Shown here: positions 1,109 to 62,026 of the stretch, one piece after another
Numbering within the stretch: position 1 is the first letter of the stretch
Layout: each line of letters begins with the position of its first letter
DNA from: Bryopsis sp. KO-2023
Taxonomy: Eukaryota > Chlorophyta > Ulvophyceae > Bryopsidales > Bryopsidaceae
DNA: 64,000 bases
Assembly: GCA_030272585.1 (NCBI GenBank)
Contig: BSYQ01000002.1
Span: 3,534,001 to 3,598,000 of the forward strand
Direction of reading: 5' to 3'
Notes under the pieces: model-generated
Told to the model about the DNA's origin: nothing
Seen by the model: the letters and a program-made list of their open reading frames with translations, nothing else
The model's database searches: none
Translations under genes and position numbers: made by a program

Positions 1109-1580
1109 TCACATGAAGAGGAGGAGTCTTGTTATCATTCGAAGGAAACGCAGCAATGCTGAGAAGATTCTCTTCACCTCATTTTGAAGTAGTTTTCTGA
1201 AATCGCGGCGAGGGCCTTTCAAGGATGTGGAGCCTCCTGTGGACAAAAGGGAACAAGTTGAAATGAAAAACGTGAGGATAACGACAGGACCAAAAAGGGA
1301 ATACCACACACACACACACAAGCCGATCCAGGAGAACTGTTTGGACCCACAGATTCAGCCGCTACGAAGGAGCGAAATCAACGCTGACACAAGAAAGAAA
1401 AACGAAGGCGTATCAAGGACCCTAATCTTTACTCAACACCGAGCTGAACGTAGCGCTTGCGTCGGTTTGCTCACCGGATCGAAGCTGTTTCGTCGATTTA
1501 AGACATGGGAGAGCTGGCGTCGTTTCCACGATGGTAGACGCCAGTAAAAGAAGAATCGCTGTTGCTGGAGCGGTCATCAT
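1109..1580 (-). CDS. Small secreted cationic amphipathic protein, left copy (77 aa)
   Basis: Two exons, 1580-1475 and 1236-1109. The first ends in phase 1 at a GTGAGC donor and the second follows a CACAG acceptor in phase 1, giving 77 aa. Residues 1-20 are a signal peptide (MMTAPATAILLLLAS). The C-terminal third, from FRKLLQNEVKRIF on, has Lys/Arg spaced among Leu/Ile/Phe as in a cationic amphipathic helix. The ancestral start used in the other copies is ATC here, but an in-frame ATG four codons later keeps the frame open. The right copy (28863-29350) has the same frame and splice sites. It lies head-to-tail upstream of the ankyrin gene. I recognise no named family; an antimicrobial or membrane-active role is inference. 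Confidence 0.6.
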
Positions 1581-18440: not shown

Positions 18441-19490
18441 TTAGTCTTCAAGGCAAGAGTGGGCACAGAAGTCCCACACCAGGATTTTCCCGTCGCACCG
18501 CACAACAGTCAGCCTGCCCTCCGTCAAGAAAAGACCTATGAGTTTACCCCCTACATGAAACGTGCGAAGGAAACGATCCTCCTCGACAAGACCGGAAACC
18601 ACCACTTCCATCGAGTTTCTCGTACCCTGCGCAAACTTGCTTTCGTTGAGCGCTACAAGAAACCACCTTGGGTTATTGTCCACAACTCGCACAGACTCGA
18701 AGGTCTCCAAATCCCATATCCGGATGGTATCGTCCACAGAGCCACTAACAAACATCTTGTCATTGGCATCAACACGCAAGATAGGACGAGAGTGTCCCTC
18801 GAGTGCCACCACGCGGGTGCAGGAGGCCAAGCTCCACACTTCCAGATGCCCAACCCTCAATCCACATATCAACAAACCCACTCCCTTGGCAAATGCGGCA
18901 CATAAAATGTCCTCTTGCACCGGGCCACCCTCATTCAAAACCTTCACACGAGTCCAGCCCATCTTGCTCCACAAATCCAGGCACCCAAACGTACCACCAA
19001 AGGCCACGTGGTCTCCGACATCCACGATCGCATGAACCTCGAAACGAAGGCTAATGGCCGCGATCTGTCTCAATTCAGGCATTTCCAGGACCGCCACCAT
19101 TCGCGTGTCACTCTCGCACAGGAACATTCCATTGATCAAACACACAGCCGAACTCCCCATGTTGGCTCGGTCCCTAGTCAAGACGTCGCCTTTCTCAGCG
19201 TTCACAGAAAAAATCTTTTCTTCCCCAACTATCGCAATCATCTCGCCCCGCATAGCGTAACTTTCGATCCACCGATTCTTGAGGAGCTCGATACATTTCG
19301 GCACAACGGTGCCACATCGCCAGGATCTCTCGAGGCCGATTTTCTTAGCGAAAGGGCCTTCCTTGGTGACTTCGTTCCAAGCCTTAGCGACACAGGAGCA
19401 CCTGGCCAAAGCCCTCGGGCAAAGCCCCTCGAAGACTCGACCAACCACGCCACTAGGGAGCTCCCACTCAACACTCACGTAATCGCTCAT
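18441..19490 (-). CDS. F-box/WD40-repeat protein, copy 1 (349 aa)
   Basis: A single uninterrupted frame. The ATG at 19490 opens MSDYVSVEWELPSGVVGRV; residues 9-50 are an F-box-like helix set (LPSGVVGRVFEGLCPRALAR, CVAKAW), where a Skp1 partner would bind. The rest is a divergent WD40 propeller; the best repeat is LEGHSRPILRVDANDKMFV ending in TIRIWDLETF, and the last blade ends GKILVWDF. The usual role of this architecture is substrate recognition in SCF ubiquitin ligases; the substrate is unknown. The frame is open further upstream but the start is set by conservation with copies 2 and 3. Copy 3 (50724 onward) differs at only a few residues. Confidence 0.85.
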   Translation of the reverse strand: MSDYVSVEWELPSGVVGRVFEGLCPRALARCSCVAKAWNEVTKEGPFAKKIGLERSWRCGTVVPKCIELLKNRWIESYAMRGEMIAIVGEEKIFSVNAEKGDVLTRDRANMGSSAVCLINGMFLCESDTRMVAVLEMPELRQIAAISLRFEVHAIVDVGDHVAFGGTFGCLDLWSKMGWTRVKVLNEGGPVQEDILCAAFAKGVGLLICGLRVGHLEVWSLASCTRVVALEGHSRPILRVDANDKMFVSGSVDDTIRIWDLETFESVRVVDNNPRWFLVALNESKFAQGTRNSMEVVVSGLVEEDRFLRTFHVGGKLIGLFLTEGRLTVVRCDGKILVWDFCAHSCLED

Positions 19491-20157
19491 TCGTTCAAAC
19501 GCGGCACAAAGAAAACCCCTTTGTACCCAAGTTGTATCTCGCCTAGGCCTCGTGGTTTCGGTGGTTTCAGCGAAGAAAAAAAAAATGCGGGAGAATCGAA
19601 CGGGCCTGTTACGGATGCGAGCACCAGAAAACACACTCCACGGCACTATTTGCGAAAATAAAAGAAAGCAGGGTTTTTTGGTTTTCCAGGATGAAAAAAC
19701 AGTGAATATAGTGATGTCCTTGTTGAATTCACAGTGTTGAAGTCATGGGGGGGGGTATCAAATACTAACGATAGTCACTTGGAAAACTGGCAAGGGAACC
19801 TTTGTCTGCAAAACGTTAACAGGGTTTTTTGCTTGCGTCTGAACTGGACCGTGTTGAGCAAACAAACGCACGAAGGAAGAATGGAAGCGGTGAGTCTCTC
19901 GTTGCGTTTGTTATGCCATCGCTTACCCTCGGTTCGACGTGCGCCACCTGGGAAAATGGACCAGCAGCAGATTTCGCGCCAAAGCCGGTCGATGGGGTCG
20001 TTTACTCTTTTTCAAAAACTTTCGGAAGGATGCGGTTGCCCGATGCCTCGCAGATTTTTCCGAGGCGGCCTCTTTTGCTTGCCGCTGTGTGGCTTTACTG
20101 TGTCGGGCAGCTTATGCGAATGCTGTCAAGCCGTGCATGCATGTTTATTTGGTCGTG

Positions 20158-20240
20158 ACTCAACATTGAGTTGAACATCCTGCCATCACCTGGACTGAGC
20201 CTTGGCCAGAGTTTAAGTAAAATAAATCCTGCACTCTTGT
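20158..20240. repeat. Short block A flank left of the gag-pol element
   Basis: This matches 2771-2835 in reverse complement (GCTCAGTCCAGGTGATG core). It is the genomic DNA that flanked the retroelement and marks where the element's deleted 3' end now joins unique DNA. Confidence 0.7.
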
Positions 20241-22881
20241 GAGAGTATGGAGGAACGTAGTCATGTTTGATTCCATACTTCTGCATAGTCATCGCAAATC
20301 GCCGCGAGGTAAACACTGCAGCGTTGTCGGTCATCACGATCTGTGGTTGGCCATGATCCTGTACCCACGCTTCCAACACCTGACTTACAGCAACAGCATT
20401 TGCATTCGCCACAGGTTTAGCATCTGCAAACCGAGAGCAGTGGTCTATGATCGTGATAACATAGACTGCGCCCTGAATTCCCTTAGGTAAAGGACCCACC
20501 ACGTCCATACTGAGGGCCTGCCCAGGCCATACACCTCGCTTGGTATCTCCCCAAGGTGCCTTTTCCTTTGGGTTCTCGTACTTCTGACAAACGACGCAAG
20601 CATCCACATACGATTGAACGACAGCTCGAGCTACCTTTCTGCCTTTCGCCCGTAGTATCTGTAACATCTTCGACACCCCGAAATGCCCTTGATGGGCCTC
20701 TTTCAGCCATCCATTCACTTGTTGCTGATAGTCCTCTTCCATCACAATACTCCGCATAATTTTTTCAAAGTGTTCATGTGTCGCCCAGCGCGATAAAAGG
20801 TCCGCGAGGATGTTTGCCTTACCGGGCAAGTGACTAAAACACAAATTTCCCCCAATCGTGTAGTTCCCCGCTATATAACTCAAGAGTCGTAACACCCTCA
20901 AATCTGTGTCGTCGGTAAGGTTCCCTGAGTTGAACTTTTGAGCCGACCCTGCAGAGTCCGTAAAGACTTGAATATTCCCCCCACCAGTAATCCATGATAC
21001 CTTCTTCAGCGCGCGCACAATTGTTTGCGCTTCACCCAAGAAGCTGGATACCGCCCTCTTGCTCGGCGAGTTCAAATGTGATCCCAGAAACAGCAGTCGA
21101 TCCCCTTGTGTTAAAGCGTACCCGCCAGCAGCTGACGACCAATCCGTGTATAATTGGAAGTCGGTACTTGGTTCCTGCATCCCGATGTCATACACAGAGC
21201 TCATAACATCGGTTACAACGCTTCGAAAGCGCTCATTCACCAAATCCCAGTCTGCTTCTCTCCCTATCGCCGAAAGTTCCTCGTACATATCTTGCACTCT
21301 TCCTGCATAGCCAGGAACATGCCCTTTCACCACGTTCAACATTCCCAAGGCCTGTTGTAGCGTCTTTCGCCCTTGGATTTTTGGTAAACCCTCCTGTAAC
21401 TTCTTGCAATACGGAGTCACACTCACTGTCCCATGTGATACCTCAAATCCAAGGAAGGTAACGCTGCTCTGTTTGAGTTGTAGCTTCTCCTCCTTTACCT
21501 TAAACCCGAATCGGTCCAAGGCACGAAATAGTGCGTTTAATTTCCTATCGTGGTCCCACTCATTTAACGCGCCAATGATGATATCGTCCATGTATACTTC
21601 GGCGTCTAGTTCGGGATCTATTTTTCTCGCTTCCTCAAGGACACGATTAACAAGAGCATGAAACATCAATGCACTCCCGTTAAAACCCTGTACCAACCTT
21701 CGGAACTGGTACCGTTTCTTCCCCAAACTAAAGCAGAAGTATTTACTAAGCTCAGCATCAATTCCTAAATTAAAAAACCCATCTTTCAAGTCAATTACCG
21801 AGAATACCCGGTAATCGGGGTTTAACCTTGATAATATCGTCTTGGGGGGGGGCAATGGCGCCTTCCATGTTCGGAAAAGTTTGTTCACGCGACGGCAGTC
21901 TAACGTGATCCTCACTGAGCTGCCCCCCGGCTTCTGGAATATCAAAGGCTGCGAGAAGAGGCCTCGCTCTTGCCATGACATCTCGCGTATTATTCCCCGT
22001 CGTTCTAACGTGGCGAGCTCGTCCTCTGCTGCCCCCATCTGTGCTGTTGACAGCGGCTGCCATGCGCTTTCGGAACTGAAGTGTGTTTCCCCTATCTGTT
22101 CGAGGTCAGAAAGTGTGACCGAAAGAGCCGCCATATCTCGTGTCATTCCGCTAGCGGCAGGTGACAAATCAAACACCCGTGGGAATCGTTGTATAAGCTG
22201 TGATAGACACTCATCTCGATTCTCAGGTTCAAACAACTCGTTGTTCATAACGTCAGCGCTTACACCAAGAGAACCTTTCCCGTCATCCCATTCCCCATAT
22301 CGACCCCATTTCGAACGTCGAATATCCCACACTTTCATCGAACCAATCCCCTGTTTCCCATTCTCTTTCTTGTGACGTTTCCAGCTGCCTTCCACTTTTT
22401 CCTCCTGTCGCCGCTGATTCTGCCGATTTGCCTCCTTTCCCGACTTTCGCACATACGGTTGAGCCACAGGGCTATTCCGCACTCTAGATAATGCACAACG
22501 ACCATCAATATCGATTAATTCACAAAGACGACCAGGAATGAACCAAGCCTTTGTTTTCGGGGTCACATGTTGTACTTCACTGCTATCATTGACCAGATAC
22601 CCAAACAGCGTTCCTCCTGTGCGCTGTTTCATCACCAATCTAACTCCCTTCTTACTAAGACAATCGATGACAGGCCCTCGGATCCCTGTAAGTTCATAAG
22701 GTAAACTCATGACTGCGACTTCTCCTGGTCCCAGTACCACACTTCGATTTAGATAGAACACCACAACATCTTGATACTGCTCTGGATAATATTCAATCTC
22801 CTGAGTTAACTGAATCCTTATACCATCGTCGATCGTCCTACCATCGTTTCCTGAATGCATGGACGACTCGCACCCAGGCAT
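20240..22881 (-). CDS. pol: Pol: reverse transcriptase, RNase H, truncated integrase
   Basis: The frame is -1 relative to gag-pro. The reverse transcriptase carries VFSVIDLKDGFFNLGI (first acid) and AEVYMDDIIIG (about residue 430). RNase H starts near residue 583 (LYTDWSSAAGGYAL). The integrase zinc domain at about 720-767 has H-H-C-C (HQGHFGVSKML to DACVVCQ), and the core has DVVGPLPKG and VMTDNAAVF but ends before the final Glu. Residues encoded left of 20240 are flanking DNA read through to a stop at 20095. The frame itself is otherwise intact, which suggests recent activity before the deletion. Confidence 0.8.
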
Positions 22882-24827
22882 CCTTTTTTTGAATCGTCTT
22901 GAGTACAGACAGCGGGTCGCACTTTGGCTTTCTCCAGGAAAATCGTCTTGGCCAGCTTTGCTCCTTTCTTAAGCAAGATCGAACAACTGCGCTCATTTTC
23001 CACATCGAGGACAACAGGCTCTCCTTCCTTTGGTCCTGCAACCAATTGCGAATGTATCCGAAGCCCATGCTTATCTGCGTGAAGGTTTCGCGGCTCAACA
23101 GCCATAACCACATCCCCGTGAAGAAAACATCGAGCAGAGGAAACGACTTGTGTAGTTCGTCCAGGCCCCAAAAGGGTGTCGTTTCCTAAGGTCAATACAC
23201 ACTCGCCTGAGTCCGCTTGGGTCTCCTTTGGCTTTCCAGACGAGGGTGCCTTAGGTGCAGCTGAAAAACAAATGATTTCGTCATCTGTATTTTTGTCCAC
23301 AAGTCGATCAGTTCCAGGGTCGATAACAAAGCCCAGGAGCCCAATCGCTTCCTTGCCCAGGATGCTGCGCCCATGCCCTTCCAAGATAACGAACTTGATT
23401 TCAGCTCGGTTCTGCCCTACTTCGACGCTCACAGTCGTCGTCCCCAGGGACTGTACACTGTCCTGCGTAATGCCTTGAATCGAAATCGTCCCTGGTTGCA
23501 ATGGCAGACCAAACTTTCGCAGCGTTTTTTCGTAAAGGATACTGACCGCAGCCCCAGTATCGATCAAAAACTTGACCTGCTGCCCTTTGATAATTCCATT
23601 CACGTGCATGAGCCTCCTGGTTTGGCTACGAGTTTCGGAAGTACTGCCAACCCCCACATACACCTCCTCTTCGTCTGACTCCGAATTCATCCAAACAGTG
23701 TGCACGGTTTGCGTCTCTGTAGTGTCCACGTGCTTCACTGGCTTCCCTGACGAACCAGCCTTTCCAAACGGGGTTTTCCCTGGGGGCTGAAGCGAGGAGG
23801 GCCCATTTCCTTCGGCTTGTGCTGTGTGCACGATTTCCTTGATCCGATCCGCTAACCACGGGTTTCGCATCCCCTTTTGGATAGTACTCAAAAGCTCATT
23901 CATGCGCGATAACTGTAAAGGAAATGTAACCAAGCCCTTTCCATTAATGGGCAGTACCTCCACGCTTTCCTCGCCCTCCAACGCCCCACAGTAGTCGGCC
24001 GCATTCACTTTGCCCTCCCTGGGACCCACGCCGCCCAGAGCTTCCCAATCGCCAGCAAGGGCAGTCGCCCTTTCCAGCGTCGTGGGTTTCCTGGATTCGA
24101 CTTGAACGCGAATCTGGGGCTGTAAGCCAGCGATGTAGTGGCCGACTAACTCAGCATCATGCGCTTCTGGTATTCGCACAGCCAGCTTTCGAAATACTGC
24201 GTTGTACTCCTGTACGCTTCTGGTGCCTTGCGAACAACTGCGAATCAACCTTCGAACTCGAGTGTCATCATCCTTTCTCGCAAACTGATCTTTCATTTTC
24301 TCACGAAGCATATCAAAGTGCAGGTCCCGAATGTCAGAGCGTTCTAAGAGGACCCTGTACCAACTTTTCGCAAAGCCTCGCAACATTGTCCCAGCGTACC
24401 GCACCCGCGCGTGCTCCGAGCTCTCGCCAATCAAGTCCAAGTATTCGGTGATACTGAACCACCAGTCCGACCAACTCTCGTCCGCTTTCTCCCCTGTAAA
24501 GAAGTCTGGTACACCAAACTTTACTTTGGCGACCATGGGAAAACGCATTCCACTTCCGTTAGGGGTGTCGTGTCGCCGCCCTTCACGATTTCCTGGGCTA
24601 GGTACAGTAAACACCTCATCGTATTCACTTTCTTGCTGGGAGTTTACCCTTTCTGGCGGCGGCCTTAAGCCTTGCGATGCCTCCAACGCTGACATGCGTA
24701 CTTCAAGCTGAGAGAACTCTTCTCGCATACTTGTGCGAATAGCCTTTACGATTTCCGATTCCATGGCGGTTGTCTGCTCAGGTCGTGAGCCCTCTGCCAA
24801 TATTTCTCCTGCCTCAGGCTCGTTCAT
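22818..24827 (-). CDS. gag-pro: Gag-protease polyprotein
   Basis: The ATG at 24827 opens MNEPEAGEILAEGSRPEQ, and the frame runs 669 codons. Residues about 125-270 form a retrotransposon Gag capsid-like region (SDWWFSITEYLDLIGESS, LRGFAKSWYRVLLE). No CCHC zinc knuckle is visible. The aspartic protease sits at about residue 424 (FLIDTGAAVSILYEKTL, with the D-T-G triad), followed by a long extension with a second ILGKEAIGLLGF motif. It overlaps the pol frame by 64 nt. Confidence 0.8.
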   Translation of the reverse strand: MNEPEAGEILAEGSRPEQTTAMESEIVKAIRTSMREEFSQLEVRMSALEASQGLRPPPERVNSQQESEYDEVFTVPSPGNREGRRHDTPNGSGMRFPMVAKVKFGVPDFFTGEKADESWSDWWFSITEYLDLIGESSEHARVRYAGTMLRGFAKSWYRVLLERSDIRDLHFDMLREKMKDQFARKDDDTRVRRLIRSCSQGTRSVQEYNAVFRKLAVRIPEAHDAELVGHYIAGLQPQIRVQVESRKPTTLERATALAGDWEALGGVGPREGKVNAADYCGALEGEESVEVLPINGKGLVTFPLQLSRMNELLSTIQKGMRNPWLADRIKEIVHTAQAEGNGPSSLQPPGKTPFGKAGSSGKPVKHVDTTETQTVHTVWMNSESDEEEVYVGVGSTSETRSQTRRLMHVNGIIKGQQVKFLIDTGAAVSILYEKTLRKFGLPLQPGTISIQGITQDSVQSLGTTTVSVEVGQNRAEIKFVILEGHGRSILGKEAIGLLGFVIDPGTDRLVDKNTDDEIICFSAAPKAPSSGKPKETQADSGECVLTLGNDTLLGPGRTTQVVSSARCFLHGDVVMAVEPRNLHADKHGLRIHSQLVAGPKEGEPVVLDVENERSCSILLKKGAKLAKTIFLEKAKVRPAVCTQDDSKKGCLGASRPCIQETMVGRSTMV
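22884..22890 (-). promoter_or_regulatory. Candidate -1 frameshift slippery site
   Basis: In the gag frame the codons read TCA AAA AAA GGA, giving a heptamer A AAA AAA in the correct X XXY YYZ register. It lies just upstream of the pol ATG, within the overlap of the two frames. Slipping back one base enters the pol frame directly. Confidence 0.7.
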
Positions 24828-24828
24828 A

Positions 24829-24840
24829 GCTCCGAAACCA
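24829..24840 (-). promoter_or_regulatory. Primer-binding site of the gag-pol element
   Basis: TGGTTTCGGAGC (minus strand) resembles the initiator-tRNA-Met type TGGTATCAGAGC and is identical to the site in the Ty3 element at 57787-57798. The gag ATG follows only one base downstream, so there is almost no leader. Confidence 0.65.
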
Positions 24841-24841
24841 T

Positions 24842-25103
24842 ATAACAATAATCGTACTGGACTTGTTCCAGTTGGGTGAAACACACAAGAGACACACTTG
24901 GGCTTTGCCCTGAAGGGACTTACAAGAACTAATTGTATCGTTCCTTTCACAACGTTTTATCCTTCCCCTTTCCAAGTATTGCCTGTCCTCCAGAAAACCA
25001 CTGTATTGTACCAATACACCAAATCTTCCTGTACCGCCTGTGAACCCTCACAAAAGCCCACGTGGTTCACCATCTACCTCTTCCTCCTCTAACCTTTTCT
25101 ACA
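24842..25103 (-). repeat. 5' LTR of the gag-pol element
   Basis: The outer edge is fixed at 25103 because the empty site at left (about 2475) breaks exactly there. The LTR begins TGTAGAAAAGG on the minus strand. The inner edge is set by the primer-binding site at 24829-24840; the exact last base is uncertain, since no CA dinucleotide falls at the expected place. There is no partner LTR. Confidence 0.6.
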
Positions 25104-25784
25104 GGACTTCTGTGCATGTATTACTTTGACAATTATGGGTGGGGGTGTGAAAAACCATACAGAATCTAAGTTTCGTGAAAGGAGATCAAACCTTTTGATA
25201 ACCATTTCAACATGGAAGAGGTCAGCATGTAGCAAAAAAAAAAAACACCACCATCAAAAGGGGCTCCAGAAGAGTGAGAAAAAAAAGGATTAAATCAGGG
25301 GAGGGAACATTCCCAGAAATCAAAACAGGTTCAAGAAAGAAATACCTTAACACAAGGGCCTGCCTCTCCATAAGTGCGGAAAGAGCGAGAAAAAAAAAGT
25401 TGACGAAAATGGAAAAAACCTATGCTGAAATAAACCTGCTGTCTGCAGACAATCATTGTTTTGGGAGGTGAAACCTGTACAAAGGAGCTCCAAAACAATT
25501 TCTGGATTTTTTTTTCTGGCGCCCAGTGGTGGTTCCGTTAAGAATACCGTGATACGAAAGATCCTCGCCCTGTTTTGAAGGCACCTCTCCTCAGTCTTGC
25601 GCCAGTATTCATCCCGAAACACCGTGACAAATCGTCAAACCGTCGCGCACAGATGATATTGTCGTACTGCGGACGGGTGGAACAGAGTTCCACTTGGAGA
25701 TACGAGACGAGCGCACTCACGTGAGCAAAAAGCTTAGTAATGGTCTAAGGAAACTTCGTTGAAGTCGTTTCCTTGCACCGACTC
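25104..25784. other. Block A DNA upstream of the amidase gene
   Basis: 25104-25580 matches 1890-2475 in reverse complement. 25580-25784 has no counterpart at left. No gene seen. Confidence 0.5.
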
Positions 25785-26370
25785 GAGATAGTAGCGCCAC
25801 AGCGGCGCCTCAGCCGAATTCGATCCGCATGGACTTCAGCGCTCTAAGCAGAGGGCAACGACAAGCGGAAAATGGAGGGGGGGGACCAAAGCGAGGAATT
25901 TCCGTACATTTTGACAGGTTCCGGAAGCTCCGAATCGGAACCCGATCGGAACGTGCGCACAAAATGGTACAGTGGGGGTCAAGCGCGGGCATACCTCCCA
26001 GCCGCTCCAAGTATGAATGTCATACGAGTGCCCATACACCCTCCATTCTCTGCGTCGCCAGCGGGACCTTTAAAGCCGTCATAACGCTCCTGCAACGACC
26101 ACGACAAGAAACAACCGCCCACTTCCCAGCACCACAGACTTTCTTTTCGATTTGTTTCTGCGTAGCTCTTCGTTCCCCATTCAGAAGCCTTGTTTTCGGC
26201 AGAGTTTTCTCCTTGTCCCGCCGAACTGCACACGACGAGAAGCGACATGTCGGCCAGGATGATGACCGCTCCAGCAACAGCGCTTCTTTTTTTACTGGCG
26301 TCTACCATCGTGGAAACGACGCGTCTAGCATCTCTCCCTCTTGTAAAATCAACGGAACAGCTTCGATCCG
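25785..26370 (+). repeat. Direct repeat 1: signal-peptide exon with upstream region
   Basis: About 590 bp matching 28400-28980 in the same orientation, from a GATAGTAGCGCCACAGCGG block through the signal-peptide exon to its GTGAGC donor. The pair brackets the amidase gene, so recombination between them would delete it. Confidence 0.75.
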
Positions 26371-27302
26371 GTGAGCAAACCGACAAAAGTGCTACGTTCA
26401 GTTCGGCGCCACGTAAAGATTGGTCCAAACTCGTGAGATGTTTCGCTTCGCCGAGTTTTGGAGGAGGCGGTGCACAGTGTCCTATTTACAATGAGTCTCA
26501 TCGCTATGATAGCCTTGACTCTCCTGCCTAACGCTAGCATTTCTGGTGTACAGGCGATCAAGTTTCTGAAAGCATGGAAAGACCCCAGCGACAGCTTTTG
26601 GTGAGTTGGATCCATCCACTTCAGGACCGAGGCGTTCAAACGCTAATTTGTTCGGCTGTGATCTTCGTTTCTTCGATTGCCCTGTGCTGGATCGCCCTCA
26701 AACTCCTGTTTTCTGTCGGACAGTCCGGTTTCTGACTCTTAACCCGATCTGCGAATTTTCAGGGGTCGAAGAAGCGTATCATGGTCGACGCAGGCCATGG
26801 CGGAAGAAAACCAGGAGCCGTGGCCAATGGTTTCGTAGAAAAAGAGCTTAATCTTAAAACAGCCGAACTGGTGCGAGAATATCTGGAAGCGAGAGACTTC
26901 ACGGTTTTGATGATACGTACCGACGACGAACACGTCGATGTCAAAGACAGGGCGAAAATGGCCAATGAGGAAGAAGTTGATCTGTTCGTCAGCATTCACT
27001 ACAACGCTGAAGTTCCTGAAGCGCACGGTTCCTTGGTGCTGGTGGACCCGTCGGTGGAGGAAGGCGACCTGGCTGAGGTGTGTGCTACCGCTGTGCTGAC
27101 GCAGCTGGGCGAGAAGACCAAAATCAAGACGGGGGAAGTGAGATCACAAGTCCTAGCTGTTCTTAAAAGAACCAGAATGGCTGCAATTTTGGTGGAAGCA
27201 GGGTTTCTCACCAGTCCTATCGACAGCGAGCTCCTCAGGGACGATGAGACGATTGACGCTATTGCTAAAGCCATTGCCGCGGGGGTCGACGAGTGTTTGT
27301 AA
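26247..27302 (+). CDS. Secreted N-acetylmuramoyl-L-alanine amidase (Amidase_3), three exons, 236 aa
   Basis: Exons 26247-26370, 26554-26600 and 26763-27302 join in phases 1 and 0. Residues 5-24 are a signal peptide (MMTAPATALLFLLAST). The catalytic domain starts at about residue 60 (MVDAGHGGRKPGAV). The zinc ligands and catalytic acid of the family are all present: H in AGHGG, E in VEKELNLK, H in VSIHYNA and E in LVEAGF. The enzyme would cleave the amide bond between muramic acid and the stem peptide of peptidoglycan. The domain is compact, about 175 aa, as in bacterial AmiC-type enzymes, without wall-binding repeats. Introns and the signal exon shared with neighbouring eukaryotic genes argue against contamination. 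The GTGAGC donor is preferred over GTAAAG at 26413, which also keeps phase, because it is conserved in all three exon copies. An antibacterial or digestive role is inference. Confidence 0.75.
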
Positions 27303-28399
27303 ACCCTTGAATCAACGTTTTGGTGGGCGGTGTGTCTATACGCTGACGCAGCACCAGTTTTGAATATTTGATGAAGGTTTTCGAGTGTGTTAGGATTGAT
27401 TTAAAGAACTGCATCCAGTACAAAGTGTGCAGCTGTTAGGCCGGTATTGCTGCCATCCATGGAGATGGTAACTAAATGCCGATAAATCGCTCGACGAAGT
27501 GAAGAAATGAGTGAGGTTAGCAAATCCCCTGTAGTCAATGGTGGCCTCATATATGTGAAAAAGTGTGATGTGGACAAGGGGGAAGTGTTTTTGTTGATAG
27601 TTTGGAATTCAGGTGGAGGCCTTTTTTTGGACGGCCATCTCAAGGTCGAGGGGGGTTGATTGAATTAGTTTTGATTGATTTTGTTTTGGATTGGACAGGC
27701 TGAGGGAGGAACTGTTAGACATTTCTTGAGATGGATCGATTTCATTTAGTGTTGAGATGAACTGTTGGCTTTTGCTTGTGATATATTGATTTAATTCGAT
27801 TTAGTTTTGGATTGGATTGGGTGAGGATGAATTGTTGGCTTTTTTTGAGGTGATTTCATTTAATTTTATCTCCAGTGATCATTATTTGACGTCAAATTTG
27901 TTTAACATTAGTCATCCAAGGTTGGATGCCATCGGATGCTTGATTGTCAAGATTGCACCAGTTATATCCAGCCCAGATTCTCTCCAGAGGGATATTGCGA
28001 TGTGTCACAAAAAATGTACAAGAAACCCTGTCAATGTAAACTACGCTGCTTAATCGAACCAACACTTGGTTTCGTTGGCAGAAAAGTATTTCACCGCTTT
28101 TGTGGGTCCCACAAAGCAAAAACCGCCACCTATCATCAATTCGACTGAATAGTTCTTCTTCTGCGAATCAGAGACAGGGTGACGCCTGAGCGGGCGTTAT
28201 GGGGATAAAGCCAGAAATGGGCGTGAGTAAAAAGAGTTTGCAAGAATAGATGTTTCATGCCAGGACTGTCGCAGGGTATCAAAACGTTTAGCTTTTCAAG
28301 AGAAAAATGGAAGAAGCTCGAGGAATCCATCCTCCATGTTCACAAATTTTTCCATAGTCTCGAGAAACTTTGCTGAACCTGTTTTCCTTCCACCGACCC
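27303..28399. other. Spacer between amidase gene and second signal exon
   Basis: No gene supported. At 27640-27860 a degenerate tandem repeat of roughly 90-110 bp occurs, rich in GATTTCATTTAGT- and GGATTGGA-type words. The spacer has no counterpart in the left arm. Confidence 0.4.
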
Positions 28400-28980
28400 A
28401 AGATAGTAGCGCCACAGCGGCGCCTCAGCCGAATTCGATCCGCATGTGCTTCAGCGCTCTGAGCAAAGGGCAACGACAATCGGAAAACGGAGGGAGGGGG
28501 ACCAAAACGAGGAATTTTCATACATTATGACGGGTTTTGGAAGTTCCGAATCGGCACCCGATCAGAACGTGCGCACAAAATGATACAGTGGGGGTCAAGC
28601 GCGGGCATACCTCCCAGCTGCTCCGAGTATGAATGTCTTACGAGTTGCCATACATTCTTCATTCTCCGCGTCGTTAGCGGGACCTTTGAAGCCGTCGTAA
28701 CGCTCCCGCAACGACCACGACAAGAAACAACCGCCCACTTCCCAGCCCCACAGACTCTTTTCGATTAGTTTCTGCGTAGCTCTTCGTTCCCCATTTACAA
28801 GCCTTGTTTTCGCCAGAGTTTTCTCCTCGTCCCGCCAAACTGCTCACGACTAGAGAAGCGACATGTCGGCCAGGATGATGGCCGCTCCAGCAACAGCGCT
28901 TCTTTTTTTAGTGGCGTCTACCATCGTGGAAACGACGCCAGCTCTCCCTTGTCTTAAATCGACGGAACAGCTTCGATCCG
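28400..28980 (+). repeat. Direct repeat 2: signal-peptide exon with upstream region
   Basis: Partner of 25785-26370. It carries the original ATG and the same GTGAGC donor; here the downstream exon encodes the amphipathic helix. Confidence 0.75.
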
Positions 28981-29350
28981 GTGAGCAAACCGACGCAAGC
29001 GCTACGCTCAGGTCGGCGCAAAATAAAGATTGAATGATTGGGGTCCTTGAAACGTCTTCATTTTTCTTTCTCGTGGTCCCAGCAAGAAGAAGGGAGCATT
29101 AGCCTTGATTTCGCTCCATCAGAGCTGCTGAATCTATGAGTCGAGTGTGTGTGGCATTCCATTTTTTGGTCCTATCGATATCTTCACGTTTTCTTTTTCA
29201 ACGTGTTTACTTGTGTCCACAGGAGGTTCCACGTCCTCCACGCGCCCTCACCGCGATTTCAGAAAACTACTCCAAAATGAGGTGAACAGAATCTTACCAG
29301 CATTGCTGCGTTTCCTTCGAATCATAACGAGACTCCTCCTCTCCATGTGA
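28863..29350 (+). CDS. Small secreted cationic amphipathic protein, right copy (81 aa)
   Basis: Exons 28863-28980 and 29223-29350 join in phase 1 and give 81 residues. Residues 5-25 are a signal peptide. A linker with one cysteine leads to a C-terminal region beginning DFRKLLQNEVNRI, in which about five net positive charges alternate with Leu/Ile/Val. The left copy at 1109-1580 has substitutions, but the frame, splice phases and helix pattern are kept, which suggests selection. It ends about 120 bp upstream of the ankyrin gene's ATG on the same strand. A membrane-active peptide is the simplest reading; a mitochondrial-type helix or a disordered secreted protein are alternatives. Confidence 0.6.
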
Positions 29351-29467: not shown

Positions 29468-30480
29468 ATGGATCTGGAGCTCGAGTCGGTATTAGAGGCC
29501 TCCCTGGAGGAGGTTGCTGGACCTCCATCCCCTTCTACTGTTTTATCAGCAGATGATCAAGAGGTATCCTCACCTTCCGTTCAAATGCTCTAGTTTCAAC
29601 GTCACTGGTGCGTTAAAAAATTACAGAAAAATATGCTGAGGCGTGTTTGGTTTCAAGGATGTTGATGAGATGCTCTTGGAGGCTGCCCGTGATGGAGATC
29701 TCGACCAAGTCAAGGTAATCCCACCATTTAAAACATCTTATTGCTAGTGGTACTTTGGTGGATAGAAGCGGCGGCTCTCCTTCGTGAATATCATACGTGA
29801 ATCGTACGTTGCGAACCGAAATCAGCACGAACTCACGAAATCATACCCTCTTTCAATATTTGCAGGTGTTTGTTAGCCGTGGGGCAAACTTGGAGTCTGA
29901 GGCTGGCAGCGACGCGGTCCTCGGTGCGGCCTGGAACGGCCACTCTGAAGTTGTGGAGTACTTGCTTCTAGCGGGTATATGCTCGATTTTGATTACTTTC
30001 CTGCCTTATTTCTTTCAAGATGTGATCTGGAGCAGTTGATGAGCAACTGAGGTCGCTTTTGTTTTGCGATTGCTAGGCGCCGACTCCGGTCCTTTAAATT
30101 TGTTGGGCACGGCTGCTATGAACGGCAGTGTTGTGGCTGTCAAAACTCTTCTTGGAGCAGGTGCGAAGCGAAAAATCCTCAAAGCGAAGAACATTTAGGC
30201 AACAACGAAATAAATGTGTGTTTTCTTCCTTGATATACCCTGTTTGCAGTCCAACGAGATATGAGATGCATGTTTGAACAAAGAACTTTTACTGACAAGT
30301 GAACGACCTCAAACAACCTCGTGTATTAAGCCAACCGTTGAGTGAGCGATCGTTTCGACAGGGCTTGATAAGAACGCGGAAGACTCGGAAGGGGAGACTG
30401 CGAAGGATGGTATTTGTACTTGTCCGTTCAATCCTTGTGATGAGGAAACCGAGAACGAGCTGCATGAGCTTCTCGACTGA
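29468..30480 (+). CDS. Ankyrin-repeat protein, right copy (154 aa, five exons)
   Basis: Exons 29468-29563, 29658-29714, 29866-29974, 30077-30160 and 30362-30480 join in phases 0, 0, 1, 1 to give 154 residues and a stop at 30478. It has an acidic N-terminus, then three ankyrin-type repeats (DEMLLEAARDGDLDQVK, AAWNGHSEVVEYLLLA, GTAAMNGSVVAVKTLL), then a C-terminal cap with three cysteines (GICTCPFNPCDEE) and an acidic end. Likely an intracellular binding protein; partner unknown. An alternative last exon at 30250 (after GTTTGCAG) would give a short different tail; a related sequence is present at left. Confidence 0.75.
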
Positions 30481-35069: not shown

Positions 35070-36515
35070 TTAACGGGTGTACATCTGCGGATCGGTAGCT
35101 GATTGCCCTTTGCAGAATCCCCTCTCTCTGTCTCAATCAATAAAAATGGACTTGTTGCAAGACTTCCACAACACAGGATCACACACACAAAAATTTGTTT
35201 AAACAATCAATAATCATTGAAACAGGTTTCTTACGCCAAAAATCAACACTTGTTAATCTTCAAGGCAAGAATGGGCCCAGAAGTCCCACACCAAGATTTT
35301 CCCGTCACGCCGCACAGCCGTCAGCTTGCCCTCCGTCAAGAAAAGACCTATGAGTTTACCCCCTACATGAAACGTGCGAAGGAAACAATCCTCCTCGACA
35401 ACACCAGAAACCACCACTTCCATCGAGGTTACCGTACAGTGCGCAAACTTGCTTTCGTTTAGCGCAAAAAAGCACCACCTTGGGTGATTGTCGATAACTC
35501 GCACAGACTTGAAGGTCTCCAAATCCCATATCCGGACGGTAAAATCCGGACCAACGACCATACTAACGACCATATTGTCATTGGCATCAACACGCGAGAC
35601 AGGACGAGAGTGTCCCTCCAGCGCCGCCACGCGGGTGCAGGAGGCCAAGCTCCACACTTCTAGATGCCCAACCCTCAATCCACATATCAACAAACCCACT
35701 CCCTTGGCGAATGCCGCACACAGAATGTCCTCTTGCTCCGGGCCACCCTCATTCAAAACCTTCACACGAGTCCAACCCATCTTGCTCCACAAATCCAGGC
35801 ACCCAAACCTACCGCCAAAGACCACGTGGTCCCTGACATCCACGATCACATCAACCGTGAAACGAAGGCTAATGGCCGCGATCTGTCTCAATTCAGGCAT
35901 TTCCAGGACCATCACCATTCGATTGCCATTCTTGCACAGCAGTGTTCCATTGATCAAACACACAACCGAAATCCTCGTGTTGGCTTCGGTCCTAGTCAAG
36001 ACGTCGCCGTTTTCAGCGTTCACAGAAAGAATCTTTTTTCCCTGAACCATCGCAATCATATCGCCCCGCATATCACAACTACCAGCCCACCGATTCTTGG
36101 GGAACTCGATACATTTCGGCACAACGGTGCCACATCGCCAGGATCTCTCGAGGTCGAGTTTTTTAACGAAATGGCCTTCCTTGGTGACCTCGTTCCAAGC
36201 CTTAGCGACACTGGAGCATCTGGCCAAAGCCCTTGGGCAAAGCCCCTCGAAAATTCGACCAACCACGCCACTGGGGAGCTCCCACTCAACACTCACGTAG
36301 TCGCTCATTCGTTCAAACGCGGCACAAAGAGAACCCCTTTTCCCCCACGATGTACCTCGCCTAAGCCTCGAGCTTTTGGTGTTTTCCACAAAGGAAAAAA
36401 TTGCGGGAGAATCGAGCGGGCCTGTTACGAACGCGGGCACCAGAAAACGCACTTCACGGCACTATTTGCGGAAAGAAAAGAAAGCAGGGCGTTTTGGTTT
36501 TCCAGGTTGAAAAAA
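35070..36515. repeat. Dispersed third copy of the F-box/WD40 segment
   Basis: Matches 18.30-19.69 kb in the same orientation, including 3' flank (ACTTCCACAACACA) and 5' flank (TTTTGGTTTTCCAGG), with visible divergence. Only this part of block B was copied here. Confidence 0.8.
35253..36308 (-). CDS. F-box/WD40-repeat protein, copy 2 (351 aa)
   Basis: Intact single frame from the ATG at 36308 (MSDYVSVEWELPSGVVGRI). It has the same F-box (residues 9-50) and WD40 plan as copy 1, but with many substitutions: KKLDLERSW for KKIGLERSW, and a two-residue longer blade at MVVGPDFTVRIWDLETF. The frame is unbroken despite this divergence, so this copy is probably functional and older than the copy 1/copy 3 split. 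The likely role is substrate binding in an SCF-type complex. Confidence 0.85.
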   Translation of the reverse strand: MSDYVSVEWELPSGVVGRIFEGLCPRALARCSSVAKAWNEVTKEGHFVKKLDLERSWRCGTVVPKCIEFPKNRWAGSCDMRGDMIAMVQGKKILSVNAENGDVLTRTEANTRISVVCLINGTLLCKNGNRMVMVLEMPELRQIAAISLRFTVDVIVDVRDHVVFGGRFGCLDLWSKMGWTRVKVLNEGGPEQEDILCAAFAKGVGLLICGLRVGHLEVWSLASCTRVAALEGHSRPVSRVDANDNMVVSMVVGPDFTVRIWDLETFKSVRVIDNHPRWCFFALNESKFAHCTVTSMEVVVSGVVEEDCFLRTFHVGGKLIGLFLTEGKLTAVRRDGKILVWDFWAHSCLED

Positions 36516-36696: not shown

Positions 36697-38688
36697 CTAC
36701 CCTCGATCAAAAGCAAAAGAATCAAACGACAAAGAAGATCGCTCCAAAAAAGCGTTACCCTGAGGCCGATGTAAAGAAAGAGAGAGCTGCTGCCACGCTC
36801 TTTCAACAACAACTGAAACCGGGAGATCTTGACAAGTCGCAACTGCGCGGGATAAAGAACGAATCAAATGACCACTGTCCGAAGAAAACCCGCCAAAAGA
36901 TTCGGCCGCAAAACAGATAAAATCAAACCCCAAACGATGACATTTCTCAGCCACTTGAGCCTTGCGATCCACACAACGTAAAATGCCCGCCCCCGCTTCG
37001 CGAGTAGCCCGAGCCAAAGTGGCTTGCTGTAAAGGATGCGAAACAGTGACATCAATAACACACGCCTTACCATGCCGCCAAGACGGAAAAAATACGTCGG
37101 CCGGACGCTCAAAAGAAGAATCTACGTGCAACTCCATGCGAGGACGCACACCCGCCGACCGAGAAAAATGGAACAAAAAGTTCCGGATACTATTATGACG
37201 AGCCAAAACACTGCCCCCCACTTGGCACATGATAGCATGATCACCAAAAACATCCATGGACGAATGACACATGGGACAAACAGCGCCATCCTCATACATG
37301 GGGAGACCCAACCGCCATCGTAATAAAATATTGAACGCCGCCGAAGAAAGCTCCGTCCCCAACGCCTGATTAGGCAAAGCAGAAAGGTAAGCCCCAGAAT
37401 AAGGAAGAGAGAGACTTCGCAAACGCGCCTCATCCCGCCGGAACCCTTGACGCAAAAGAGCATCAAACCGCCGCTCCCCAACCAGCAACGTCAACGCTTT
37501 CTGGGTAACCTGCTCCTTCGCGAACCACTCCTCGGGGGAACTGAGTGCTGCTGGCGGCAAAATATCATCAAGTTGCACAGCGGCAAAGCTCCACGAAGGA
37601 TGGTTTGAAGAAAAAGAAACCCCCGAAAGAATCGACAAATCATGACGAACAAAATGTAGAGAAGAAAAATAGGCTACTGCATGAAACCAACTTCCAGCCG
37701 AAATCCCAAGTCCCCCACTACGAACCGGCAGGCTGGTTTGCAACCAAGCCATCGAAGATAAAGATAAACAAAAAAACTGTTCCATAGAATCCCGTAACAA
37801 ACCATCAAAGCGGTCCAAGAAGTGTTGGACACTGCTATACAAACAAGGAGGAGTAGTGCGAAAAAGATGCACCACTCGACATGCCCCTAAACAGGAGCGC
37901 AAAAAAAGAAATTGTAGCTGAGAATCAGCAACCTCAGAAATACACTCAACCAACGACTTAACTTGCTCATATCGACGATCCAAAAACGGTGTAACCCACT
38001 CATCAGACCCAAACGGGGCCCCCAACACATCCGCCCCCCAACAAGTACCAAACGAACGTGACAATTCCCTAGGAAGCGAATCCGCGGAAGGAGCTGAAGG
38101 CCAAAAGAGTTCACATTTGTGACGATTAATGTGAATCCCATGATGGGGGCCTAAATCACAAAGAAACTGAAAAAAACTGGACACTTGGTCAACTGGACCC
38201 CCAATGGTGCCGTCATCTAAATACCATAAATCCAAAGGAACAGAACACACTTCTCGAACTTCTTGAAGCACCTTTTCCAAACCCAAAGAAAATAAAAAGG
38301 GTGCCAAAGGATCCCCTTGCTGCACTCCAATGTGACTAAAAAGTGTACGGTCCCCACACACTAGACGACAAGGCTGAGAATATGAAGAAAAAACCCATTC
38401 CGCCATATCTGGAAAATGGGTATTAAGCTCATGAAAAACAGAAGTTCGATTCACCAAATTGAAAGCATTCTCCATGTCGATCTTTAAGAAAACAAAATCA
38501 GACGAAGCATGGTGAGAAGCTAAAAACAAACGAGAACTATGCACCACCGATTCTGCGCCACAGGCTGCAGCTACCCCCCTTTGGTGCGGACCAAGAAAAT
38601 CCGCCATTTCCCCACGAAAACATCCACAGAAACATTTGCTGACGAGACGACGAAAAACGTCGCCGACAGCTATCGGCCTTACCCCCAC
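36697..38688 (-). CDS. LINE reverse transcriptase with CCHC motif and restriction-like endonuclease
   Basis: The frame is open from at least 38730; no ATG starts it, so it is an N-terminal truncation. Reverse transcriptase motifs: FVFLKIDMENAFN (catalytic Asp near residue 71), GVQQGDPLAPFLFSL, and LWYLDDG at 156-159. Near residue 471 is a zinc motif, CPMCHSSMDVFGDHAIMC. It is followed at about 529-600 by an endonuclease of the PD-(D/E)xK kind (RPADVFFPSW, ACVIDVTVSHP, then AEKCHRLGF and AAESFG). This arrangement nicks the target and primes reverse transcription. The upstream DNA-binding domains are missing. The frame has no stops, so insertion is fairly recent. Confidence 0.8.
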   Translation of the reverse strand: MGVRPIAVGDVFRRLVSKCFCGCFRGEMADFLGPHQRGVAAACGAESVVHSSRLFLASHHASSDFVFLKIDMENAFNLVNRTSVFHELNTHFPDMAEWVFSSYSQPCRLVCGDRTLFSHIGVQQGDPLAPFLFSLGLEKVLQEVREVCSVPLDLWYLDDGTIGGPVDQVSSFFQFLCDLGPHHGIHINRHKCELFWPSAPSADSLPRELSRSFGTCWGADVLGAPFGSDEWVTPFLDRRYEQVKSLVECISEVADSQLQFLFLRSCLGACRVVHLFRTTPPCLYSSVQHFLDRFDGLLRDSMEQFFCLSLSSMAWLQTSLPVRSGGLGISAGSWFHAVAYFSSLHFVRHDLSILSGVSFSSNHPSWSFAAVQLDDILPPAALSSPEEWFAKEQVTQKALTLLVGERRFDALLRQGFRRDEARLRSLSLPYSGAYLSALPNQALGTELSSAAFNILLRWRLGLPMYEDGAVCPMCHSSMDVFGDHAIMCQVGGSVLARHNSIRNFLFHFSRSAGVRPRMELHVDSSFERPADVFFPSWRHGKACVIDVTVSHPLQQATLARATREAGAGILRCVDRKAQVAEKCHRLGFDFICFAAESFGGFSSDSGHLIRSLSRAVATCQDLPVSVVVERAWQQLSLSLHRPQGNAFLERSSLSFDSFAFDRG

Positions 38689-49959: not shown

Positions 49960-50723
49960 CGTGTTTTCCTGAAAAAAAACATTCGTGACCAAATAAACAT
50001 GCATGCACTGCTTGACAGCATTCTCAAAAACCACCTGCCCCAACGAAGCTACACGGCGGCAAGCAAAGGAGGTCGTCTTGGAAAAAACAGCGAGGCATCG
50101 GCCAACCGCATCCTTCCGAAAGATAGAGAAAAAGAGTGAACGACCCCATCGACCGGCTTTGGCGCGAAATTTGCTGCTGGCCTATTCCCAGGTGGCGCAC
50201 GTCGAAACCGACCGCCGGTCGCCGACCCGTTTTCATAAGCCAAAAGCGACTCCAGAAAGACAAAGGCAAAGACAAACCCTCAAAAATAGGGTAAGCGATG
50301 GCAACACGAAAGCAACGAGAGACCCACCGCTTCCATTCTTTTTTCGTGCGTTTGTTTGTTTGTTCGACACGGTCCCGTTCAGGCGCAAGCAGAAAACCCA
50401 GTGAACGTTCTGTAGACGTTCCCTTGCCAGTTTTCCAAGTGACTATCGTTAGTGTTTGATAACCCCCCCATGAATTCAACACTGTGAATTCAACAAGGAC
50501 ATCACTATATTCACTGTTTTTTCATCCTGGAAAACCGAAAACCCCTGCTTTCTTTTATTTCCGCAAATAGTGCCATAGAGTACGTTTTCTGGTGCGCGTT
50601 CGTAACAGGCCCGTTCGATTCTCCCGCATTTTTTTTTTCTTCGCTGAAACCACCGAAACCACGAGGCCTAGGCGAGATACAACTTGGGTACAAAGGGGTT
50701 TTCTTTGTGCCGCGTTTGAACGA

Positions 50724-51482
50724 ATGAGCGATTACGTGAGTGTTGAGTGGGAGCTCCCTAGTGGCGTGGTTGGTCGAGTCTTCGAGGGGCTTTGCCCGAG
50801 GGCTTTGGCCAGGTGCTCCTGTGTCGCTAAGGCTTGGAACGAAGTCACCAAGGAAGGCCCTTTCGCTAAGAAAATCGGCCTCGAGAGATCCTGGCGATGT
50901 GGCACCGTTGTGCCGAAATGTATCGAGCTCCTCAAGAATCGGTGGATCGAAAGTTACGCTATGCGGGGCGAGATGATTGCGATAGTTGGGGATGAAAAGA
51001 TTTTTTCTGTGAACGCTGAGAAAGGCGACGTCTTGACTAGGGACCGAGCCAACATGGGGAGTTCGGCTGTGTGTTTGATCAATGGAATGTTCCTGTGCGA
51101 GAGTGACACGCGAATGGTGGCGGTCCTGGAAATGCCTGAATTGAGACAGATCGCGGCCATTAGCCTTCGTTTCGAGGTTCATGCGATCGTGGATGTCGGA
51201 GACCACGTGGCCTTTGGTGGTACGTTTGGGTGCCTGGATTTGTGGAGCAAGATGGGTTGGACTCGTGTGAAGGTTTTGAATGAGGGTGGCCCGGTGCAAG
51301 AGGACATTTTATGTGCCGCATTTGCCAAGGGAGTGGGTTTGTTGATATGTGGATTGAGGGTTGGGCATCTGGAAGTGTGGAGCTTGGCCTCCTGCACCCG
51401 CGTGGTGGCACTCGAGGGACACTCTCGTCCTATCTTGCGTGTTGATGCCAATGACAAGATGTTTGTTAGTGGCTCTGTGTAG
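50724..51482 (+). pseudogene. F-box/WD40 protein copy 3, 5' part, broken by the Ty3 insertion
   Basis: The ATG at 50724 opens the same protein as copy 1, with few differences (for example VGDEKIF for VGEEKIF). The frame runs about 250 codons to FVSGSV and then hits a TAG formed by the LTR's first bases. The F-box and the first WD40 blades are kept and the last blades lost, so an unstable or dominant-interfering product is possible if it is transcribed. Confidence 0.85.
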
Positions 51483-61000: not shown

Positions 61001-62026
61001 CTATTGAAGCAGGAAATCCCAAAATGTAATCGTGCCAACAACGTCGACCACCACAAGCTCACTACGATCTACCCACAAGCATAAAGATGTGCGCTCAACA
61101 CCAATAGATCTTATCAGCTTTTGCTTAACAATGTCCCAAATATCTACCGTGGTCCCCCTCGATCCGATGACTATTCGAGAATCATCTAGATCAACACATT
61201 TGACCCATTTAAGGATTCGATACGTTTGCTTAACCTCTCCATCTTCTAGACTCCAAAGGTTAACACTGTTGTCAAACGATCCGCTCAATACCCAATCTCC
61301 ATGAACAACAAGAGATAGCACACTTGAGGAGTGCCCTTGAAAACTTTGAACACATGTCGCTGTGGAGATATCCCATGCACGAATACTTCCATCGAGGCAT
61401 CCAACAAGTAAGATTTTCCCATTGCAAGCTGATGCCAAGGCCCGAATATGGCAAGAATCTTCAAGTAGTTGTTGTTCGCACTCCCAAGTCCCTGGCATCC
61501 ACAACCGAACCCTACGATCATCTCCAGCACTTGCCACCATGTCTCCAACCTCGACAATGCAAGCCACCATTCCCATATGTGCCATGAATTGTGACAATAA
61601 GACGCTTCTCTCGATACTCCACACATGTATGCGGCCCCCTTGGTTTCCGCTCAAAACCACGTCCTCCAACAAGCATAAAGAACAAGACCTCGTTCCCGTT
61701 TCGATCACCTTCCTGATTTCTCTCTTTCTCAAGTCCCATATTTTAATCCACCTCTCACCCCCTACTCCGATCAGGTTGTTTCTTTTTACGGCACAATAAA
61801 CTTCTGAAGCAACATTTTTCAACACAAATGTGATAGGTTGTACATCTCCAGCCCTCCAAGATTTTTCCAAATCCACTTTCTTTTTCAAGCTGGGATCAGA
61901 AGCTGCAACCATCCATGCCGAAGCTACACAAGCGCATTTGGCGACCTCGCTAGGTGGCAGAGGTCCCAGAATATGAGTGATGAGATCTACAGGTAAATCC
62001 CACTGATGTCGAAATGTGGATTCCAT
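61001..62026 (-). CDS. F-box/WD40-repeat protein, diverged member (341 aa)
   Basis: Single exon from the ATG at 62026. The F-box at residues 9-50 (WDLPVDLITHILGPLPPSEVAKC, then VASAWMVAASDPSLKKKVDLE) has the same layout as in the other three copies, including the LEKSWRAGDV joint. Seven WD40 blades are readable: IKIWDLRKREI, IHVWSIER, VRLWMPGTWEC, IRAWDISTATC, VNLWSLEDGEV, VDIWDIVKQKL and a closing ITFWDFLLQ. Blade motifs are closer to consensus than in copies 1-3. A substrate receptor of an SCF ubiquitin ligase is the usual role for this architecture. It lies outside block B, so it is an older tandem relative. Confidence 0.85.
   Translation of the reverse strand: MESTFRHQWDLPVDLITHILGPLPPSEVAKCACVASAWMVAASDPSLKKKVDLEKSWRAGDVQPITFVLKNVASEVYCAVKRNNLIGVGGERWIKIWDLRKREIRKVIETGTRSCSLCLLEDVVLSGNQGGRIHVWSIERSVLLSQFMAHMGMVACIVEVGDMVASAGDDRRVRLWMPGTWECEQQLLEDSCHIRALASACNGKILLVGCLDGSIRAWDISTATCVQSFQGHSSSVLSLVVHGDWVLSGSFDNSVNLWSLEDGEVKQTYRILKWVKCVDLDDSRIVIGSRGTTVDIWDIVKQKLIRSIGVERTSLCLWVDRSELVVVDVVGTITFWDFLLQ

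Follow-up and report, generated by a model that had tools for sequence, protein, structure and literature searches.

A bacterial-type amidase gene of the green alga Bryopsis that probably exchanged its promoter and signal exon for those of a peptide gene family

How does a gene for an enzyme of bacterial type come to share its 5' end with genes for a small amphipathic peptide in a green alga? The question is raised by a stretch of 64,000 nucleotides of Bryopsis sp. KO-2023 (G000:C2:3534001-3598000, from a genome of 91.1 Mb in 28 contigs), here called the window, where a gene for an Amidase_3 protein and two units with a cationic helix had been predicted to start with one and the same signal-peptide exon. 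The siphonous green alga Bryopsis harbors bacteria both internally and on its surface (PMC3196581, PMC12509668), recurrent bacterial partners inside it among them (PMC3196581). We propose, with moderate confidence, that the amidase had its promoter and signal exon replaced by those of the peptide family through recombination within intron 1, and that the resulting enzyme acts on bacterial peptidoglycan.

The amidase gene and the spread of its first exon

The amidase gene lies on the forward strand and has three exons. Exon 1 (26247..26370) begins MSARMMTAPATALLFLLASTIVETT, encodes what looks by eye like a signal sequence, ends in phase 1 and corresponds to the start of the public protein BSKO_02650. 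Exon 2 (26554..26600) is kept in the sister amidases, with 76.9-84.6% DNA identity over 52 bases in L001-L004, and exon 3 (26763..27302) encodes the Amidase_3 domain. Between them lie intron 1 (26371..26553) and intron 2 (26601..26762, GTGAGT...TCAG). The original prediction had spliced 26370 to 26554, and this junction does keep the frame, but it had overlooked the second intron: joined alone, the two exons run into a stop ahead of the amidase domain, whereas removal of intron 2 restores both the frame and the match with BSKO_02650, to which the spliced product is then equal across all 236 residues. In the protein database searched, BSKO_02650 belongs to a cluster of three sequences. Exon 1 is preceded by a block (25781..26246, forward strand), presumed to hold the promoter and the 5' untranslated region, which DNA alignment and a genome search find in common with the peptide/ankyrin units described below.

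Residues 63-233 of the product match the Amidase_3 model of Pfam at 161.2 bits, against a curated cut-off of 27, and Amidase_3 is the sole domain that Pfam recovers up to an E value of 1, with no second domain. The predicted fold likewise fits Amidase_3. The catalytic residues that had been read from the sequence, H69, E83, H136 and E202 in protein numbering, are all present and occupy invariant columns in an alignment of 55 sequences drawn from the 120 listed; we take the His, Glu and His to be the zinc ligands and the last Glu to be catalytic. In sequence, predicted fold, zinc ligands and catalytic Glu the protein is like the bacterial Amidase_3 enzymes (4rn7, Cwp6, AmiC2, CwlV); unlike them, it is the product of a nuclear gene of three exons, begins with a eukaryotic signal exon and has no other Pfam domain.

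The claim that the same signal exon, with upstream DNA and a phase-1 GTGAGC donor, stands at 26247, 28863 and, on the minus strand, 1580 was borne out. Compared with 26247-26370, identity is 89% for the exon at 28863-28980 (E 2e-45) and 87% for the one at 1580 (E 1e-41); all three are followed by GTGAGC in phase 1, and upstream of the exon 25786-26057 matches 28401-28673 at 90% identity. In the copy at 1580 the first ATG reads ATC, and its start would be the second ATG, four codons later. As a count, three places proved far too low. A search of the genome with the block 26060-26376 (317 bases), which gives a lower bound, recovered at least 26 places, all the matches listed being on contig C2. 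Eighteen are close copies (86-100% identity) situated between 2.25 and 3.64 Mb of C2, three of which lead into an amidase and 15 into a helix exon, and eight are distant copies at 68-71% identity. A second search, with a distant copy as query, brought three more matches, likewise all on C2: one further distant place, the ninth (C2:8608800), and two short fragments. These three were not among the copies read, and the counts of distant copies given below cover eight. Chance similarity is ruled out by the at least 26 places, which in the rows aligned are in register with the GT donor. A dispersed transposon was likewise rejected as the main explanation, because the matches are confined to one contig and the 26 places read precede the same two types of gene.

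The chimeric intron and the direction of the proposed exchange

Intron 1 of the amidase gene is chimeric. Its first part (26371-26422) is of the peptide-family type: starting with the final base of exon 1, a run of 53 bases is 85% identical to the peptide unit, and there the similarity stops. The remaining 131 bases (26423-26553) are of the amidase-family type. We aligned them to the stretch of 260 bases that precedes exon 2 in each of four other amidases, with 1000 dinucleotide-preserving shuffles as the control, and obtained scores of 82.5 (L053), 62.0 (L068), 67.0 (L054) and 65.0 (L055), which were reached by 0, 1, 0 and 0 shuffles respectively; the peptide intron, by comparison, scored 45.5, a value reached by 386 shuffles. 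The joint in the window reads GGTCCAAACT, and the same ten bases occur in L053 and L068. The GGTCC at 26422-26426 is present in both parental introns, in that of the peptide unit at a nearby position. Such an intron is what recombination inside intron 1 would leave.

The sister genes display what appears to be the earlier state. Four other catalytic amidases (L001/L054, L002/L055, L003/L068 and L004/L053) have, by eye, a signal exon of their own, which begins MFVTK... or MSVTK... and ends in phase 1, and the public records P0002-P0004 agree with it. As these sisters share exon 2 with the window gene but have another exon 1, the window gene appears to have exchanged its signal exon along with its promoter. 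A tree built from the 5' region places the three amidase copies in one clade beside the 15 close peptide units, with the eight distant copies outside that grouping under a midpoint root. The direction of the exchange has become clearer: the amidase is the receiver of the 5' end, and the peptide/ankyrin units, with 15 of the 18 close copies, are the large family. The chimeric intron, the other signal exon of the sisters and the matching phase thus uphold the exon shuffling that the original prediction had invoked. As a separate observation, L068 (C2:4557001-4565000) contains a head-to-head pair made up of a catalytic amidase with its own signal exon and a distant peptide/ankyrin unit; if the segment between the first introns of such a pair were inverted, the two genes would trade first exons.

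The three chimeric amidase genes are near-identical, and each is followed on its own strand, at a distance of about 2.6 kb, by a peptide unit. The resulting doublets start on C2 at 3560060/3562676, 3359250/3356636 and 2808866/2806252 (amidase/peptide unit). Over the 200-base bins that cover 26101 to 28500, identity between the window and either of the other doublets is 96.5-100%; from 28501 onward identity falls to 78-96% (L066) and 78-98.5% (L067), the step for both being from 99.5% (bin 28301-28500) to 90.5% (bin 28501-28700). On the left flank L066 stays at about 100% down to 25701, and L067 is at 82% and 49% before 26101. The right-hand drop falls within the 5' block that the peptide unit has in common with the amidase, a hint that recombination or conversion between copies may occur there.

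The alga has a family of Amidase_3 genes grouping with bacterial ones. We posit that an ancestor of the window amidase had its promoter and signal exon supplanted by those of a peptide/ankyrin unit, in a recombination inside intron 1 where both introns read GGTCC. Like the exon it replaced, the new one ends in phase 1 and so fits. The chimera would then have been duplicated; together with a neighboring peptide unit it now makes up a doublet at three sites of one chromosome.

Comparable arrangements are on record. A signal-sequence gene family of Schistosoma japonicum (PMC3434034) is alike in having one promoter and signal block at many loci before different short products, in its retained introns and in the DNA-level recombination proposed for it; in Bryopsis, by contrast, every copy recovered is on a single contig, and the fold of one recipient is that of a known enzyme of bacterial type. 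In the chimeras of horizontal gene transfer (HGT) in arthropods (PMC13389597), a stretch from another domain of life is joined in frame to endogenous sequence, as may be the case for the Bryopsis gene; the difference is that Bryopsis is a green alga and that its fusion took the place of a signal exon already present in the amidase family and carried a promoter along with it. For the amidase as a candidate HGT-chimera, the public gene model agrees with contiguous splicing of the predicted kind. Among the titles and abstracts searched in an open-access library we found no report of a Bryopsis amidase or of a eukaryotic Amidase_3 family with dead members, and none of a swap that replaced the existing signal exon of a bacterial-type green-algal gene with donor, recipient and intronic scar all visible. 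The window would capture a swap of promoter and signal exon with its scar still legible in the intron and the state before the swap displayed by sister genes, and so indicate how a gene of seemingly bacterial origin can be rewired in an alga.

The helix reading frame and the ankyrin gene

The peptide unit downstream of the window amidase comprises, on the forward strand, a 5' block recognized by DNA alignment (28401..28862), a phase-1 signal exon (28863..28980), an intron (28981..29222, GTGAGC...ACAG) and a helix exon with a stop (29223..29350), which together yield a spliced product of 81 residues. A third unit, on the minus strand, has its signal exon at 1475..1580, counted from the second ATG, and its helix exon at 1109..1236. 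Both helix exons are preceded by an acceptor ending in ACAG, and, as had been predicted, the junctions 28980/29223 and 1475/1236 are in frame and lead into cationic amphipathic helices, with net charges of +4 and +5 and hydrophobic moments of 0.82 and 0.88. An ankyrin gene follows on the forward strand, its first coding exon (29468..29563) being recognized by the match to BSKO_02641, with further exons at 29658-29714, 29866-29974, 30077-30160 and 30362-30480. These five coding exons amount to 154 codons, and 147 of the 154 residues are those of BSKO_02641, whose start is an ATG of its own and does not coincide with the signal exon; in the window this ATG lies 117 bases past the helix stop. A helix-type exon is found at all eight distant places read, L032 having its first part only, and ankyrin exons come next in 15 of 15 close and seven of eight distant copies (six by BLAST, L033 by alignment), L032 diverging at that point.

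Judging from its sequence features, we consider the helix frame somewhat more probably a real secreted peptide than not. The main rival, which we rate clearly lower and nonetheless take seriously, is that there is no peptide gene: the signal, helix and ankyrin exons would form one ankyrin transcript, the 5' part of which is an upstream open reading frame (ORF) or untranslated, and only the amidase would use the exon as a signal peptide. This would suit the finding that the 81-residue peptide has no match among database candidates of about 45-142 residues, and that two annotated ankyrin relatives, BSKO_02641 among them, do not start at the signal exon. It would also suit the ratios of non-synonymous to synonymous differences (pN/pS) within the close group, which are 0.94 for the signal and 0.87 for the helix part, versus 0.31 for the ankyrin exon, and the loss of the helix or signal frame in four of the eight distant copies read (L027, L028, L032, L033). 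Stop-free frames are uninformative as proof of coding, the probability that 53 substitutions placed at random create no stop being 0.34. Set against this, none of the 15 close copies interrupts the spliced helix ORF, and across these copies the coding parts of signal and helix are free of gap intervals, versus 11 in the intron, five upstream (one of them missing data only) and three between helix and ankyrin exons. Moreover, in the rows seen, the close and distant groups differ in the length of the signal exon by 3, 6 and 15 bases, save for a one-base loss in L032, and pN/pS between the groups is 0.65 for the signal and 0.40 for the first part of the helix exon. The hydrophobic moments of the two window peptides were reached by only 10 and 3 of 2000 shuffles, though that of the one distant peptide tested was reached by 73 of 2000. 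The first ankyrin exon is itself frame-shifted, through a 4-base loss, in four of the eight distant copies, which also speaks against the single ankyrin transcript. In L027, L028 and L033 changes in the length of an A-run in the helix exon shift the frame and replace the amphipathic end by another tail.

The amidase family and the probable function of the chimera

The genome has 14 full Amidase_3 domains, half of which keep all the zinc-binding and catalytic residues. They form one clade beside 44 chosen bacterial rows (support 89/84), as also beside all 116 bacterial rows listed (SH-aLRT 99). The gene looks bacterial in origin. A specifically chlamydial source was considered and rejected: three of the few named bacterial rows are from Chlamydiae (P0013, P0047, P0079), but the Bryopsis clade is not nested among them. 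The other seven domains (L056-L062, on C1, C5, C8 and C2) have lost the Glu ligand and the catalytic Glu; five of them have lost the first His as well, its position being outside the aligned stretch in L061 and L062, and all keep the second His. These seven form one clade (100/99) with open frames and ratios of non-synonymous to synonymous substitution (dN/dS) of 0.16-0.46 over 21 pairs; from their sequences, such catalytically dead domains appear to be still constrained. None is among the best 120 protein matches of about 130-413 residues, and they would therefore be unannotated, part of longer proteins, or recent pseudogenes. By eye, the exon 2 remnant of L057 and L059 carries a stop in the old frame, and the domain of L056 can be joined to an upstream exon resembling a coiled coil. 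L054 and L055, two catalytic amidases on C10, differ by 54 non-synonymous and 8 synonymous changes (pN 0.100, pS 0.047); positive selection between them was not accepted, as the Fisher p of 0.041 comes from a pair chosen post hoc from 15 group pairs, 36 in all, and is suggestive only. Faster evolution of the window amidase was similarly set aside: its stem is 1.17 versus 0.16, 0.32 and 0.42, with 0.78 for the six inner dead copies; the median unique changes are 24 versus 12 (P0002), 22 versus 11 (P0003) and 21 versus 15 (P0004), and p < 0.05 was obtained with 25, 13 and 4, respectively, of 51 outgroups, which are non-independent.

Bacterial peptidoglycan is the substrate of the Amidase_3 family. 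The mature window amidase, probably exported to judge by its signal sequence as seen by eye, would act on the peptidoglycan of bacteria that live on the cell or within it, where it would cut the amide that links N-acetylmuramic acid to L-alanine. Its expression would follow the regulation that formerly served the peptide family. It would thereby help to keep these bacteria in check. The small antibacterial arsenal envisaged in the original prediction is thus half supported: the helix ORF is open in all close copies, but it has no database match and evolves with a pN/pS of about 0.9, and an antibacterial role of either product would follow from their predicted nature. If both products were co-expressed secreted antibacterials, the swap would have been a short route to new weapons, or control tools, against the bacteria of a giant cell.

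Certain observations weigh against this reconstruction. Without the last 25 bases, which hold the acceptor, the intron scores are reached by 2 (L053), 275 (L068), 15 (L054), 56 (L055) and, for the peptide intron, 715 shuffles per 1000; the match is then clear for L053 and L054 only, not for L068 or L055, and the case leans on the former two. The 5' region tree leaves the order of events unsettled. A 6-base stretch in the amidase signal exon is kept by the eight distant copies read and absent from the 15 close peptide copies; hence, the donor would be an ancestor or sister of the present close copies and none of these themselves, and the exchange would have come before, or beside, the spread of the close group. 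The support for a single amidase clade is moderate, and the comparison is with bacterial rows only. Furthermore, matches in the genome to MraY, Ddl and a PBP glycosyltransferase make plastid peptidoglycan a possible substrate.

The same 6-base stretch would suit the opposite direction, in which the signal exon was first in the amidase and was then copied by the peptide/ankyrin family, as would the weak similarity between the first exons of other amidases and of peptide units, matched by 5 to 69 of 500 shuffles for L053 and L068 and by 101 to 335 of 500 for L054. We regarded this similarity as too weak to use as a sign of homology. The sister amidases have a different exon 1 in common, and the exon occurs at 23 peptide-type places in two deep groups versus three near-identical amidase copies, which renders that direction very improbable. 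The matches that raise the plastid as a target are several separate stretches for MraY (C4:3371061-3372277), one for the D-Ala-D-Ala ligase Ddl (C2:6406670-6407182) and pieces of the transglycosylase of a PBP (C6:1798201-1798885), from which part of the synthesis of plastid peptidoglycan may remain in the alga. Nevertheless, every MraY piece is under its curated cut-off, a search of the genome for the transpeptidase PF00905 found nothing, although a copy split by introns could escape it, and the N-termini of the amidases resemble, by eye, secretory signals and not transit peptides; we hence deem an action on remnant plastid peptidoglycan improbable. Less remote, yet still rather unlikely in our estimate, is an exported amidase that trims or harvests the peptidoglycan of tolerated symbionts or food without killing. 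In its favor, aphids are reported to express transferred peptidoglycan genes, including amiD and ldcA, in symbiont-holding cells (PMC9116674, PMC8689515), and Bryopsis has recurrent bacterial partners inside it (PMC3196581); the linkage to a cationic amphipathic ORF would suit killing better. On balance, we favor the exchanged promoter and signal exon and an amidase directed at bacteria.

The dead domains permit a broader speculation. Animal peptidoglycan recognition proteins (PGRPs) are a family with catalytic and non-catalytic members, and they carry Amidase_2. The Bryopsis family likewise mixes catalytic and non-catalytic members, but these are Amidase_3, and Pfam found no Amidase_2 in the window amidase up to an E value of 1; therefore, the likeness is at most convergent. 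It is conceivable, if unlikely, that the alga built a peptidoglycan-handling system of its own, parallel to that of the PGRPs, from one transferred bacterial Amidase_3, with secreted catalytic amidases, one of them made together with a secreted, membrane-active peptide family through its promoter and signal exon, and a constrained group of dead amidases that bind and do not cut.

The remaining genes of the window include retroelements, all on the minus strand: Ty3-type ORFs for gag/protease and reverse transcriptase/integrase (20095-24950), about 0.8 kb upstream of the shared block of the amidase; a second reverse transcriptase alone (36697-38688); and a 1762-residue ORF with protease, reverse transcriptase, RNase H, integrase and chromodomain (52416-57704). 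Genes combining an F-box with WD40 repeats recur within the window, two being identified by Pfam (18441-19646 and 61001-62026, both minus) and two others (35253-36452, minus; 50592-51482, plus) resembling by eye the gene at 18441-19646.

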